From a virus, in the IMG/VR virus record IMGVR_UViG_3300035162_001411, positions 1 to 24,032 of that record: DNA of 24,032 bases; one strand, given 5' to 3'. This document shows, one piece after another, positions 344 to 19,224 of this stretch. The notes below the pieces were generated by a model, which was given only the letters and a program-made list of their open reading frames with translations, had not been told where the DNA came from and made no database searches. Positions within the stretch are counted from its first letter, which is position 1. Each line of letters begins with the position of its first letter. The position numbers and the translations under genes were made by a program.

Positions 344-529
344 ATCTTTCCATGTCTCATGGGCGCGGACACCCATCTGGTAAACAAGCTCACCCCGTAG
401 GTCCTCGACACCCACATCGCAGAACACATCGACATCAGGGTTCATTTTGATGTCCTCCTCAATCCTCTTTGAGATCTCGTCCAGCCTCTCCACGACCCAA
501 TGCATGCATACAAGATTATACCTCATCAC
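305..529 (-). CDS. Small hypothetical protein with duplicated C-terminus (74 aa)
   Basis: I do not recognise this protein. It is acidic and mostly helical in appearance (HWVVERLDEISKRIEEDIK near the N-terminus), and ends in a charged tail with NGRGKDDDEWEG. That tail is made by a 25-bp tandem duplication that shifts frame and creates the stop codon. The start ATG overlaps the TGA stop of the upstream gene at 526-975 (TGATG), which implies coupled translation. A second in-frame ATG follows immediately, so the first residue is uncertain by one. It is probably an early gene of the minus-strand group. Confidence 0.6.
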   Translation of the reverse strand: MMRYNLVCMHWVVERLDEISKRIEEDIKMNPDVDVFCDVGVEDLRGELVYQMGVRAHETWKDNGRGKDDDEWEG

Positions 530-975
530 ACTGCCTCCTCTTTATCGAGGTAAGTCCAGTTTGATTCCTCGCCATCTCTGTACGCACCCGCAAACATTTC
601 ACCCTCGTCCTCGAAATCAGCCTCGACCTCAATGCCCATCGCATGAAGGCGATCCCATACAGGGACAGGAGGAGCCCACGCCGTCCAACACTTGAACGAG
701 AACCACGCAACCTTCTGGTCATCTGAATACTCAATCCCATCCTCGTCGATCTCAGCCTCGCAGACATCCCACTTCGTACCCCAGTGAGTGTTGCGCCACT
801 CATACCAATCAGGCATAACCTGATCCGGCTGCGTCTCCTTGGCCCACAACTCAAACGGCATGGGCGCAATCGTGCTGCAAAACTCTGGCTCCGACTTCGA
901 TAGCGCCAGATATAAATGATGAATCAAATGGCTCGGGCCTTTGATGTAAACTGATTGATAGCAATGATTAGGCAT
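526..975 (-). CDS. Api92/YubB-like ferredoxin-fold protein
   Basis: The N-terminus MPNHCYQSVYIKGP is the hallmark of the DUF1281/YubB-like (Api92-like) family found on phages and plasmids. Members begin MPNWCxN followed by a beta strand and have a ferredoxin-like domain. The middle holds the family-typical W-rich stretch with WYEWRNTHWGTKWD (about residues 77-90) and WFSFKCWTAWAPP (about 111-123), then an acidic C-terminal part. Length (149 aa) suits the family. The molecular role is not known. The ATG has AAAGGAG upstream. This is the first gene of the minus-strand group that leaves the 976-1552 control region, so its promoter should lie there. Confidence 0.75.
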   Translation of the reverse strand: MPNHCYQSVYIKGPSHLIHHLYLALSKSEPEFCSTIAPMPFELWAKETQPDQVMPDWYEWRNTHWGTKWDVCEAEIDEDGIEYSDDQKVAWFSFKCWTAWAPPVPVWDRLHAMGIEVEADFEDEGEMFAGAYRDGEESNWTYLDKEEAV

Positions 976-1144: not shown

Positions 1145-1199
1145 GTGTGATTCGTCACACTCGTTACAGCCCGTTACACCTGTGTGTAACGGGTTTTTT
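1145..1199 (+). terminator. Strong intrinsic terminator with a preceding UUCG hairpin
   Basis: CCCGTTACAC (1170-1179), loop CTGT and GTGTAACGGG (1184-1193) form a perfect 10-bp stem followed directly by six T residues. Just before it, GTGTGA TTCG TCACAC (1145-1160) is a second perfect hairpin with a UUCG loop. No plus-strand gene lies upstream in this window, since the genes to the left run the other way. It may end a small RNA, or block read-through into the small terminase gene. The terminator arms contain two copies of the GTAACG repeat. Confidence 0.8.
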
Positions 1200-1409
1200 C
1201 TGTTTAGGGGCAGCGGTTTAGGGGTCCAATTCTGAGTTTTCTATAGGGTTCTGGCTGGGTCGCTCAGTTCAAAACGAACTGGGATTTCAAATATGGTGTA
1301 ACGAGTGTAACGAGTTGTTTTGGAGTGGTGTACTGTGTTGTATTCACTCAGTATTTGCACCCTAAACTCGTTACACTTGGTTTGTAACGAACTGTAACGA
1401 ACTGTAACG
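1162..1409. repeat. Array of nine GTAACG repeats upstream of the small terminase gene
   Basis: The hexamer GTAACG, or its complement CGTTAC, occurs at 1162, 1172, 1186, 1298, 1307, 1369, 1384, 1394 and 1404. The last three lie in tandem 10-bp units (ACTGTAACGA), one helical turn apart. GTGTAACGAG occurs twice with a 9-bp step at 1296-1314, and its inverse CTCGTTACAC is at 1367-1376. AACGAACTG also occurs at 1273-1281 within a small hairpin. Such phased repeats next to a small terminase gene suggest a packaging (pac/cos-type) recognition site. A repressor operator or replication iterons are alternatives. Confidence 0.8.
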
Positions 1410-1493
1410 AGTTCAATAATGGATCTTGTTCTGGCGTCTTTGCTTTCGGATTTAGGAAACCTATCTGGAAACCCCCTATAGGAAACTCAGCTC

Positions 1494-1523
1494 TTGAAGA
1501 GGCGGCGCCCTCTGTTGTATAGT
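1494..1523 (+). promoter_or_regulatory. Candidate promoter for the small terminase gene
   Basis: TTGAAG (1494-1499), an 18-nt spacer and TATAGT (1518-1523) resemble a bacterial sigma-70 promoter. The predicted start near 1530 leaves a leader of about 20 nt containing GGAGG at 1543-1547 before the GTG start at 1553. The position fits the downstream operon well. Confidence 0.5.
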
Positions 1524-1552: not shown

Positions 1553-2164
1553 GTGGGAAAGTATGTCAAGAAAGTGTACCCCGAGGGGACATCCATCCGC
1601 TCCAATGGTAGGCCCGACCCTCGCAAGGGAAAGATGACACCCAGACAGGAAACCTTTTGTAAGTTGGTCACCGAAGGCATCTACTCGAATGCAGAGTGTG
1701 CTCGTCGCGCTGGGTTTGCCGCAGCCACATCTCATGTGTACGCAGCAAAGATGCTGAACGGGGAAGACTTCCCTCACGTTTTGGAGCGCATCCAAGAGAT
1801 GAGAGAAGAGCGGGAGCGTAAGTATGGTGTGAGCACCATAGGGCAACTCAAACGGCTGCACGATCTGTCTCGCGGCGCCGAAGAGGCCGGTCAATACTCC
1901 AGCGCCATCAACGCAGAAAAAATTCGCTCCGCTCTGGGCGGCCTTACCATCGACCGGAGAGAGAACATCAACACGATGGATCAGATGAGCCGAGATGAGA
2001 TCACCGCTCGATTGGCTGCCTTGCAACAACAGTACCCCCAAGCTTTTCAGATTGAAGGGGCGCCCATGAAGGATGTGACACCAGATGAGCAAGGGACCAG
2101 AGGCGAGATTTTGGAATATATTGAAGGGCAGCATGCCCCCAAAAGGGTACGCCCAGAGGATTGA
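1553..2164 (+). CDS. terS: Terminase small subunit
   Basis: The small terminase recognises phage DNA and guides the large subunit during packaging into the prohead. Residues 28-70 hold the family pattern: MTPRQETFCKLVTEG, then NAECARRAGF and a second helix, a helix-turn-helix of the Terminase_2 type. A helical middle (RIQEMREERERKYG) and an acidic C-terminus follow, and 203 aa is a normal length. The GTG start at 1553 is chosen for GGAGG five bases upstream. The GTAACG array just upstream is a plausible binding target. The large subunit gene is unusually far away (11011), with a minus-strand cassette between. The end overlaps the next gene by 80 bp. Confidence 0.8.
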   Translation: MGKYVKKVYPEGTSIRSNGRPDPRKGKMTPRQETFCKLVTEGIYSNAECARRAGFAAATSHVYAAKMLNGEDFPHVLERIQEMREERERKYGVSTIGQLKRLHDLSRGAEEAGQYSSAINAEKIRSALGGLTIDRRENINTMDQMSRDEITARLAALQQQYPQAFQIEGAPMKDVTPDEQGTRGEILEYIEGQHAPKRVRPED

Positions 2165-17165: not shown

Positions 17166-17627
17166 ATGGCTGATAACAAACGAGCTCCACGAGCAACTGA
17201 GACCCGCGAACAAGAGTCGCGCAGAAAACCATGGGCTCCGCCCAGTCACCTTGAAGCACCTGCTGCCCCTGAGGGCTATGTGCATCGTTGGATAAGAACA
17301 GCTATGCGAGGCGAGGAGGACAAAATGAATGTCAACGCCAAGCTCCGTGAAGGATGGGAACCTGTCCGCGCTGATGAATATCCAAACTATCACGTTCCTG
17401 TGATTGACTCTGGTAGTCACGCAGGTGTGATTGGCCAAGGTGGTCTGATGCTGTGCCGCATCCCTATCGAAACTGCCCAAGAAAGATCCGCGTATTACGG
17501 GACCCGGACCCGCGAACAGATGCAGGCTGTCGATCAGGACCTAATGAAGGAGTCACATCCTTCAATGCCGATTCAAAACAATCGGCAAAGTCGTGTATCC
17601 TTCGGAGGACGTGGGTCTTCCGATTAA
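17166..17627 (+). CDS. Conserved head-region protein (153 aa)
   Basis: The protein is soluble, with a basic N-terminus, KPWAPPSHLEAPAAPEGYVH, then RWIRTAMRGEEDKMNV and REGWEPVRADEYP. This W-pp-L.P..P.Gy-RW-R pattern is familiar from phage proteins encoded beside the capsid gene, of unknown function. The C-terminal third is polar and Gln/Arg-rich. It may be a capsid assembly or internal protein. AGGA precedes the ATG by about eight bases. Confidence 0.6.
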   Translation: MADNKRAPRATETREQESRRKPWAPPSHLEAPAAPEGYVHRWIRTAMRGEEDKMNVNAKLREGWEPVRADEYPNYHVPVIDSGSHAGVIGQGGLMLCRIPIETAQERSAYYGTRTREQMQAVDQDLMKESHPSMPIQNNRQSRVSFGGRGSSD

Positions 17628-17650
17628 TTGAAAGCTAAAGGAGCTGTCAA

Positions 17651-18295
17651 ATGGCCAATACAAATGGCGCATTCGGTCTTCGTCCCATTGGAAAAGTGGG
17701 TCAGAATACCAACAGCACTGGTGCAACTGAGTATCGTATTGCTGCAGGCAACACGAACGCAATCTATCAGGGTTCTCCTGTCATCCCTCTTGCTGCAGGT
17801 GTCATTGACATCGTTGGCTCCGCTGAGGGTGGTACAGTAGGTCTGTTGGGTGTGTTCGCGGGCTGCGAATATGTTTCCTCTACCACTGGTGAAACAATCT
17901 TTTCTAACAGCTGGCCCGGTTCGGGCGCAGACACAAACTTTCCTGTAAAGGCGTTCGTCTATGACGACCCAATGCAGCAGTTTGTGGTCGCGACGTCTAA
18001 CGTCGTTGCTGCGGCTAACACCGAAGCAGAAGTACGTGCTGCAATCTTTGCAAACGCAGACATGGCGCTTGCTACTGGCGGCACAACTGCAACTGGTATG
18101 TCCACTGCTACGTTAGATCTGGACACTATCGCCGCCACCAACACATTGAACCTGCGCATCATGGGTATCCAAGAGGACCCCGACAACGCAGACTTCACTG
18201 TAGCTGGTATCCCTGTAATCGTTCGTCTGAACAACCACTTCAATTCCGCTAACGGCGCGATTGCTGGTGGAACTGTTTCGACGACAGGCGTATAA
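17651..18295 (+). CDS. Head decoration or minor capsid protein
   Basis: The sequence is rich in small residues, Gly, Thr and Val, and beta strands (GLRPIGKVGQNTNSTGATEY, then IAAGNTNAIYQGSPVIPL). Such proteins stand directly before major capsid genes in many marine phages and are found as virion structural or decoration proteins. At 214 aa it is larger than lambda gpD. AAAGGAG lies before the ATG. No cysteine-rich or enzymatic motif is present. The role is inferred from context and composition. Confidence 0.6.
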   Translation: MANTNGAFGLRPIGKVGQNTNSTGATEYRIAAGNTNAIYQGSPVIPLAAGVIDIVGSAEGGTVGLLGVFAGCEYVSSTTGETIFSNSWPGSGADTNFPVKAFVYDDPMQQFVVATSNVVAAANTEAEVRAAIFANADMALATGGTTATGMSTATLDLDTIAATNTLNLRIMGIQEDPDNADFTVAGIPVIVRLNNHFNSANGAIAGGTVSTTGV

Positions 18296-18309: not shown

Positions 18310-19224
18310 ATGGCTATTTCACGCGCACAACTCGCGAAAGAGCTGGAGCCGGGTCTTAACGCCCTCTTTGGCATGGAGTATGGTCGGTATGAAAACCAGC
18401 ACTCCGAAATCTACACCACTGAGTCTTCTGATCGTGCATTCGAAGAGGAGGTCATGCTGACCGGTTTTGGGGCAGCACCGACTAAATCTGAGGGTTCTGG
18501 CATCAACTTTGATGAAGCTGGTGAAGCATACACTGCTCGGTACAACCATGAGACTGTTGCGCTGGCCTTCTCTCTTACAGAGGAAGCTGTCGAGGACAAT
18601 CTCTACGACCGTCTGGGTTCGCGTTACACACGCGCTCTCGCACGTTCAATGGCTCACTCCAAGCAGGTTAAAGCTGCAGCCGTTCTGAACAACGCCTTTA
18701 CTGGCGGTGCTTCAGCGGGTGGTGACGGTAAGGCGCTTTGTGCGACTGACCACCCACTCTCCAACGGCGGTTCGTTTGCTAACGAACCATCAACTGCTGC
18801 CGATTTGAACGAAACATCTCTTGAAGATGCTTTGATCAACATCGCTGGTTTTGTTGATGAGCGTGGCATGAAGATTGCTCTTCGCGGTTTGAAGCTTATT
18901 ATCCCACGTCAGCTGCAATTTATTGCAGAGCGTCTGATGGTGTCCAACCTCCGCGTTGGTACAGCAGACAACGATGTGAACGCGATCCGTTCTATGGGTA
19001 TGTTGCCTGATGGTTATACCGTCAACGACTTCCTCACAGACCCTGATGCGTTCTTCATCAAGACTGACGCACCTCGTGGCTTTGTACACTTCGAGCGTAC
19101 GCCTCTGTCGACCGGCATGGAAGCCGATTTCGACACAGGCAACATGCGCTTTAAGGCACGTGAGCGTTACAGCTTTGGTTTCTCCGATCCGCGCGCGGTA
19201 TTCGGTTCACCAGGCGCTGCATAA
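18310..19224 (+). CDS. Major capsid protein
   Basis: The main shell protein, probably HK97-fold. The N-terminus (AQLAKELEPGLNALFGMEY) is followed by the extended region with TARYNHETVALAFSLTEEAV and by DRLGSRYTRALARSMAHSK, a helix like the capsid spine helix. The C-terminus ARERYSFGFSDPRAVFGSPG is characteristic of Mu gpT-like marine phage capsids. At 304 aa it is compact and complete. AAAGGAGGG before the ATG is the strongest ribosome-binding site in the block, and a strong terminator follows at once, consistent with very high expression. Confidence 0.85.
   Translation: MAISRAQLAKELEPGLNALFGMEYGRYENQHSEIYTTESSDRAFEEEVMLTGFGAAPTKSEGSGINFDEAGEAYTARYNHETVALAFSLTEEAVEDNLYDRLGSRYTRALARSMAHSKQVKAAAVLNNAFTGGASAGGDGKALCATDHPLSNGGSFANEPSTAADLNETSLEDALINIAGFVDERGMKIALRGLKLIIPRQLQFIAERLMVSNLRVGTADNDVNAIRSMGMLPDGYTVNDFLTDPDAFFIKTDAPRGFVHFERTPLSTGMEADFDTGNMRFKARERYSFGFSDPRAVFGSPGAA

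Follow-up and report, generated by a model that had tools for sequence, protein, structure and literature searches.

A phased repeat array beside the small terminase gene of an uncultured tailed phage is a probable replication origin, likely to be read by the phage's own primase

The window analyzed here is the complete IMG/VR record IMGVR_UViG_3300035162_001411, a stretch of 24,032 bases that represents a fragment of a marine tailed phage. Near its left end a divergent intergenic region separates a leftward arm of genes, starting at 975, from the rightward gene for the small terminase subunit, terS (Table 1). Directly upstream of terS, between 1162 and 1409, there are nine exact copies of the hexamer GTAACG or its complement CGTTAC, at 1162 (-), 1172 (-), 1186 (+), 1298 (+), 1307 (+), 1369 (-), 1384 (+), 1394 (+) and 1404 (+). 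The initial annotation had described nine copies within 250 bp beside a small terminase gene, three of them in tandem at a 10-bp step, and each part of this description holds: the gene is assigned by its match to PHROG 51, the tandem copies start at 1384, 1394 and 1404, and in 60 dinucleotide shuffles of the window no hexamer of any sequence exceeded seven copies per 250 bp, so the nine copies are above chance and the repeat observation is real. Across the whole window GTAACG occurs 19 times where 8.5 copies are expected, a count that was reached in no shuffle. Two further copies, at 1298 and 1307, are spaced by 9 bp. The true repeat unit is longer than the hexamer, about TGTAACGRGT or TGTAACGAAC, and a degenerate tenth copy, CGTCACA, lies at 1153. 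The array is made up of several phased copies of a short word at a single locus, which is the arrangement expected of an origin built from iterons. A search against Rfam gave no match.

Table 1. Features of the intergenic region and of the two genes that border it
Feature	Coordinates	Strand	Description
Api92-like hypervariable protein gene	526..975	-	first gene of the leftward arm
Word cluster A	1162..1191		inverted words at 1162 and 1172, direct word at 1186
Intrinsic terminator	1168..1199	+	CCCGTTACAC-ctgt-GTGTAACGGG-TTTTTT; stem is an inverted word pair
Left flanking box	1232..1248	-	CCCTATAGAAAACTCAG on the - strand; inverted copy of the 1474-1490 box
Word cluster B	1297..1315	+	two direct words, 9-bp step
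Word cluster C	1366..1412		one inverted and three direct words, 10-bp step
Right flanking box	1474..1490	+	CCCTATAGGAAACTCAG
Sigma-70-like promoter candidate, towards terS	1494..1523	+	TTGAAG-18-TATAGT, consensus match only
terS, small terminase subunit	1553..2164	+	PHROG 51, E = 2e-13

The words are interwoven with other signals. Those at 1172 and 1186 in cluster A pair up to make the stem of an intrinsic terminator, the RNA fold of which has a z of -3.8, and which would stop rightward transcripts begun to the left of the array. Equivalent hairpins bearing words lie upstream of terS in three relatives (L005, L006 and L016), and a connection between the word-bearing terminator and priming or autoregulation is possible. 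Among relatives of the window's group the sequence of the terminator hairpin was seen to change along with the word. Clusters B and C are enclosed by a pair of inverted boxes with arms that are 94% complementary, the left one, which may also be written as CCCTATAGaAAACTCAG, pairing with the right one. Of 95 relatives, 48 have a similar CTGG...CTATA box to the right of their array and 28 have one on each side; one shuffle gave 4 and 0. The number of sigma-70-like promoter matches is not above that in shuffled sequence.

The gene at the start of the leftward arm encodes an Api92-like protein that, together with its homologues in 66 contigs, has a hypervariable mosaic center between conserved ends. 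Since this hypervariability is not linked to the array word, we rejected the protein as a reader of the word. On the other side of the region, after the VRR-nuclease gene, a perfect 21-bp tandem repeat of about two copies, GAGCCCTGCGGCTCTGTCGGC, occupies positions 2503-2542 of the window.

We then compared 80 loci that encode relatives of TerS, a set that was enlarged by later scans. A comparison of the array with relatives had been proposed at the outset, and its outcome is that the place is kept, in the divergent intergenic region, while the word is not: it is switched in all copies together, and copies inside one array are nearly identical. The words found include GTAACGA, GTCACGA, GTTACGA, GGTACGA, GTAATCA, GTATCCA, GTAAACA, GTCCTCA, GTCATCA, GTTCTCA, GTACTCA and GTAATAG, and the usual layout is a run of direct words, a short spacer and then inverted words. 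In the longer records there is one array per genome. On its left is a leftward replication operon, with genes for a primase, helicases and a DNA polymerase as well as small genes, and on its other side terS and the structural genes run rightward. Between L031 and G005 there is about 98-100% identity on both sides over several kilobases, the exceptions being the array itself and a handful of spots already known to vary. The array was not seen in the stretch read upstream of the terS match in L434 (G037), no comparable array was recognized near terS in HTVC023P/HTVC027P and DSL-LC04, and the terS region had no match among cultured phages at the DNA level.

Two further observations were made in these relatives. 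L090 and related loci carry a second array, of GACCGCC type, about 4 kb to the left of the word array (about 18,600-19,200 in G005); it has five to seven copies in 360 bp, occurs in many relatives, and lies in a stretch that differs strongly between near-identical phages. The Maricaulis metagenome-assembled genome IN14 includes four contigs of this phage group (L511, L512, L513 and L514) with different AEP primases, reflecting either binning contamination or an infected host.

The position of the array next to terS, and the phasing of its repeats, are what a pac or cos packaging initiation site bound by the product of the adjacent gene would show, and this was the reading favored by the initial annotation over operators and replication iterons. 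The contig ends in IMG/VR also give weak support, being about three times commoner in the 250 bp upstream of terS than in neighboring bins (13 left ends as against about 4 per 250-bp bin), but an excess of this kind is equally expected from strain-variable, repeat-rich DNA and probably reflects assembly breaks at such repeats, with packaging ends a less likely source. TerS binding is contradicted by a direct comparison of helices with words. The identical TerS recognition segment, AARKAGYSAEVANTSASK, occurs beside arrays of GTCCTCA, GTTCTCA, GTCATCA and GTATCCA, and conversely the single word GTAATCA is paired with at least nine different TerS helices, while no column of the TerS alignment sorts the word. 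As phages with the same recognition helix have at least four different words, TerS is not the word reader; the word does not follow TerS DNA-binding specificity in the way that a TerS-bound site should. In cultured relatives, moreover, the array is found upstream of the primase gene. We therefore regard a packaging site as very unlikely. As a separate matter, the recognition-helix segment of TerS is hypervariable among otherwise near-identical phages (L026, L032, L050 and L078) in a manner unlinked to the array, and this helix may read a packaging site elsewhere.

The protein that does follow the word is a primase. In the relatives a gene about 5-10 kb from the array encodes an archaeo-eukaryotic-type primase of the AEP-TOTE family, the N-terminal part of which matches Pfam PF22548 (E = 6e-16, with scores of 59.2 and 58.1 bits in two relatives against a gathering cutoff of 27). 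G005 and G009, whose words are GTCATCA and GTATCCA, share about 97% identity across 13 kb, and the primase is among the few spots at which they differ; the differences are concentrated in a short C-terminal stretch that is common to phages of different lineages sharing the same word. For a per-base comparison we used 23 primase/array pairs from six lineages (plus L445, from the first prediction set), found by primase scans and a DNA pattern scan, with a primase alignment of 519 columns and residues numbered as in the G005 primase. Within every lineage exactly one primase column, residue 471, sorts base 5 of the word, and exactly one, residue 481, sorts base 3 as A or not A. For words of the form GTNNNCA, Ala or Ser at 471 goes with A at base 5, Asn with T and His with C, while most phages with GTNACGA, the type of the window, have Arg. 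At 481, Thr or Ser goes with A at base 3; where base 3 is C or T, the residue is Asn, Lys or Ile. Base 4 is sorted by no primase column. In the relatives, which lie outside the window's own record, the word covaries with the predicted DNA-binding domain of a replication protein, as iterons should, and we propose from these alignments that two hairpin residues, 471 and 481, set much of the word specificity.

The strength of this association was assessed by shuffling words within lineages after removal of near-duplicates. Columns of both kinds appeared together in 5 of 2000 shuffles, a base-5 column alone in 26 and a base-3 column alone in 175, so the base-3 association by itself is not rare. 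The informative test is this within-lineage sorting of columns for each base; a ranking of all primase columns by global partial correlation gave a noisy result and placed the two in the hairpin 4th and 6th. Because the lineages are few and related, we treat the covariation as supporting evidence and not as proof. There are also exceptions: L433 has Asn at 471 together with GTAACGA, and residue 471 is not a universal reader, while the word of L455, TGACTCA, obeys the rule at bases 3 and 5 and departs from it at the first two bases.

The genes of these phages are mosaic, and an AlpA-like DNA-binding gene directly follows the primase C-terminus, so the true reader of the word could in principle be a different phage protein, one that moves with that C-terminus in recombination. 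The AlpA-like proteins of G005 and G009 are, however, identical while their words differ, and the same is true of their RHH proteins. An 83-aa wHTH protein is identical in G005 and in L024/L106, again with different words, and the alleles of a 115-aa HTH protein do not follow the word; all four were rejected as readers. The latter protein (in L090, at 17,345-17,692 in G005, and in relatives) has strongly diverged alleles that are shuffled between close phages. When the same column test was applied to ten other proteins, nine of them (AlpA, UvrD, SNF2, RHH, wHTH, TerS, VRR-nuclease and two more) gave no consistent column, and only DNA polymerase PolA, represented by a smaller set of 15 partial sequences, gave any, with three columns for base 5 and zero for base 3. 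Hitchhiking would also not be expected to produce sorting of single bases by single residues within one hairpin, and of the explanations considered here we find it the most improbable.

Reading of the word by the primase was further examined by prediction. Five words were written down from primase sequences before the arrays were read, and all five were correct. For L445 position 3 was predicted to be C or T rather than A, and the array word is GTTACGA; for L469 and L159 the predicted GTAAACA and GTATCCA were confirmed, as was GTTACGA for both L510 and L511. L469 and L159 are closely related to pairs already known, which leaves three informative predictions, and all three probe the same residue.

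An AlphaFold2 model built from 32 aligned primase C-termini places the helices of a helix-turn-helix at model residues 57-66 and 74-83, followed by a two-stranded beta-hairpin at 87-94 and 100-109, with a pLDDT of about 93 in this part. Residues 471 and 481 correspond to model residues 92 and 102, one on each strand, and this numbering suggests that they lie opposite one another in the hairpin. A Foldseek comparison of the C-terminal model with the PDB gave no significant match, so we use the term "winged-helix-like" on the basis of the order of secondary structure elements.

Cultured phages with related primases, at about 28-31% identity, have words of 7-8 bp in direct and inverted copies immediately upstream of the primase gene. 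The word is GAGCAACC in the Acinetobacter phages SH-Ab 15497, 2AB-P, AbaSI_2 and DMU1, GAGGAACC in Bhz9, TGGAACG in VLCpiS6a, K21lambda1, PMBT28 and PSA28, and TGGAACC in the Providencia phage Kokobel2. The word counts in SH-Ab 15497, Bhz9, VLCpiS6a, PMBT28 and Kokobel2 were reached in 0 of 300 shuffles; the array of JeffCo is weak, its count being reached in 36 of 300. Acinetobacter primases with about 95-97% identity to the SH-Ab 15497 enzyme vary in the hairpin along with the word, the position equivalent to 481 being Ser with GAGCAACC and Ala with GAG[GAT]AACC. The residue rule is incomplete in these phages, as Bhz9 and Bhz20 have a common hairpin and different words.

Base composition was compared as well. 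The minimum of the raw cumulative GC skew lies inside the array both in G005 (22,696) and in the rotated G006 (48,388); detrending shifts the G006 minimum to 52,074, and a minimum at the array also marks the divergent switch in transcription. The 40 bp to the left of the G005 array are 85% AT, and an AT-rich tract of this kind is not evident in the window.

It could be argued that the array is an operator and nothing else, through which the primase or a linked protein represses or activates the divergent operons, with the origin elsewhere. The divergent intergenic location, the overlap of the outer words with terminator and promoter-like sequences and the inverted flanking boxes are all compatible with regulation, and repressor sites in Cluster A mycobacteriophages also diversify with their repressor (PMC6550527). 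The covarying protein is, however, a primase and no known regulator, none of the other DNA-binding genes that were tested varies in step with the word, the raw GC-skew minimum falls within the array, and cultured relatives have the array directly before primase and helicase genes. We consider a purely regulatory array unlikely, and an additional autoregulatory operator role for the same sites possible.

The alternative of replication iterons is strongly supported through sequence covariation with the phage primase, and the array is most likely a set of iterons in a phage replication origin, to which the phage's own AEP-TOTE primase would bind through its C-terminal winged-helix-like domain. 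The left arm of the window is cut at base 1 and the primase is absent from the record, and the reading for this particular phage comes from four relatives (L353, L326, L345 and L433) that have the window's word beside terS and whose AEP-TOTE-related primases are of the type that matches it. The missing primase, which would be encoded in the leftward operon beyond the truncated end, is predicted to have Ser or Thr at 481 and, most likely, Arg at 471. With the array lying between the leftward early/replication operon and the rightward terS/late operon, the repeated word would be the binding site of the primase C-terminal domain, and several primase molecules could bind the helically phased, inverted half-arrays. 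The bound primase would recruit itself and the helicases encoded beside it, and DNA synthesis would start. Occupancy of the outer words, among them the pair that makes up the terminator stem, may in addition control the divergent operons.

Phased direct repeats are the initiator sites at the origins of iteron plasmids. The array shares this phasing, and differs from plasmid iterons in that a plasmid-type Rep protein was not found here. In the SaPI Rep and SCCmec Cch2 systems the origin likewise consists of multiple short words, and the replication protein that the element itself encodes reads them with its C-terminal domain (PMC7581432, which cites Ubeda 2007). The initiator described there is a helicase with the origin beside its gene, whereas the presumed initiator here is an AEP-TOTE primase and the array adjoins terS at a distance of 5-10 kb. 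A closer parallel in protein type is offered by PolpTN2 and PrimQH, AEP primases with a C-terminal WH domain that has been proposed to recognize the origin through its recognition helix and wing (PMC5862659, Kazlauskas et al. 2018). That was a structural suggestion; the present case concerns the AEP-TOTE family and adds covariation between residues and bases in the predicted wing. The stoperators of Cluster A mycobacteriophages are also short sites in many copies that diversify with the phage's own DNA-binding protein (PMC6550527, PMC9283540), but they are dispersed throughout the genome and serve an immunity repressor, whereas the sites described here form one cluster per genome. We found no earlier description of origin recognition by AEP-TOTE phage primases in the open-access literature searched.

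More generally, and with confidence that falls a little short of even, we suggest that in a large, mainly marine phage family AEP-TOTE primases read their own origin by a two-residue beta-hairpin code, and that primase and origin switch together, giving many mutually orthogonal pairs. Specificity would switch by small amino-acid changes and by cassette swaps, perhaps driven by competition between co-infecting phages or by parasites of the replication machinery. The replication origins of uncultured phages are rarely known, and here a sequence rule locates the probable origin and, given the primase, largely predicts its word; the rule extends to cultured phages of Acinetobacter, Klebsiella, Salmonella and Providencia, in which it is amenable to testing. 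It has long been asked how initiators and the several copies of their sites change specificity jointly, and for this question these phages offer a natural series with nearly identical backgrounds and differences of a few residues. If the proposal is true, they would provide a set of orthogonal primase/origin pairs.
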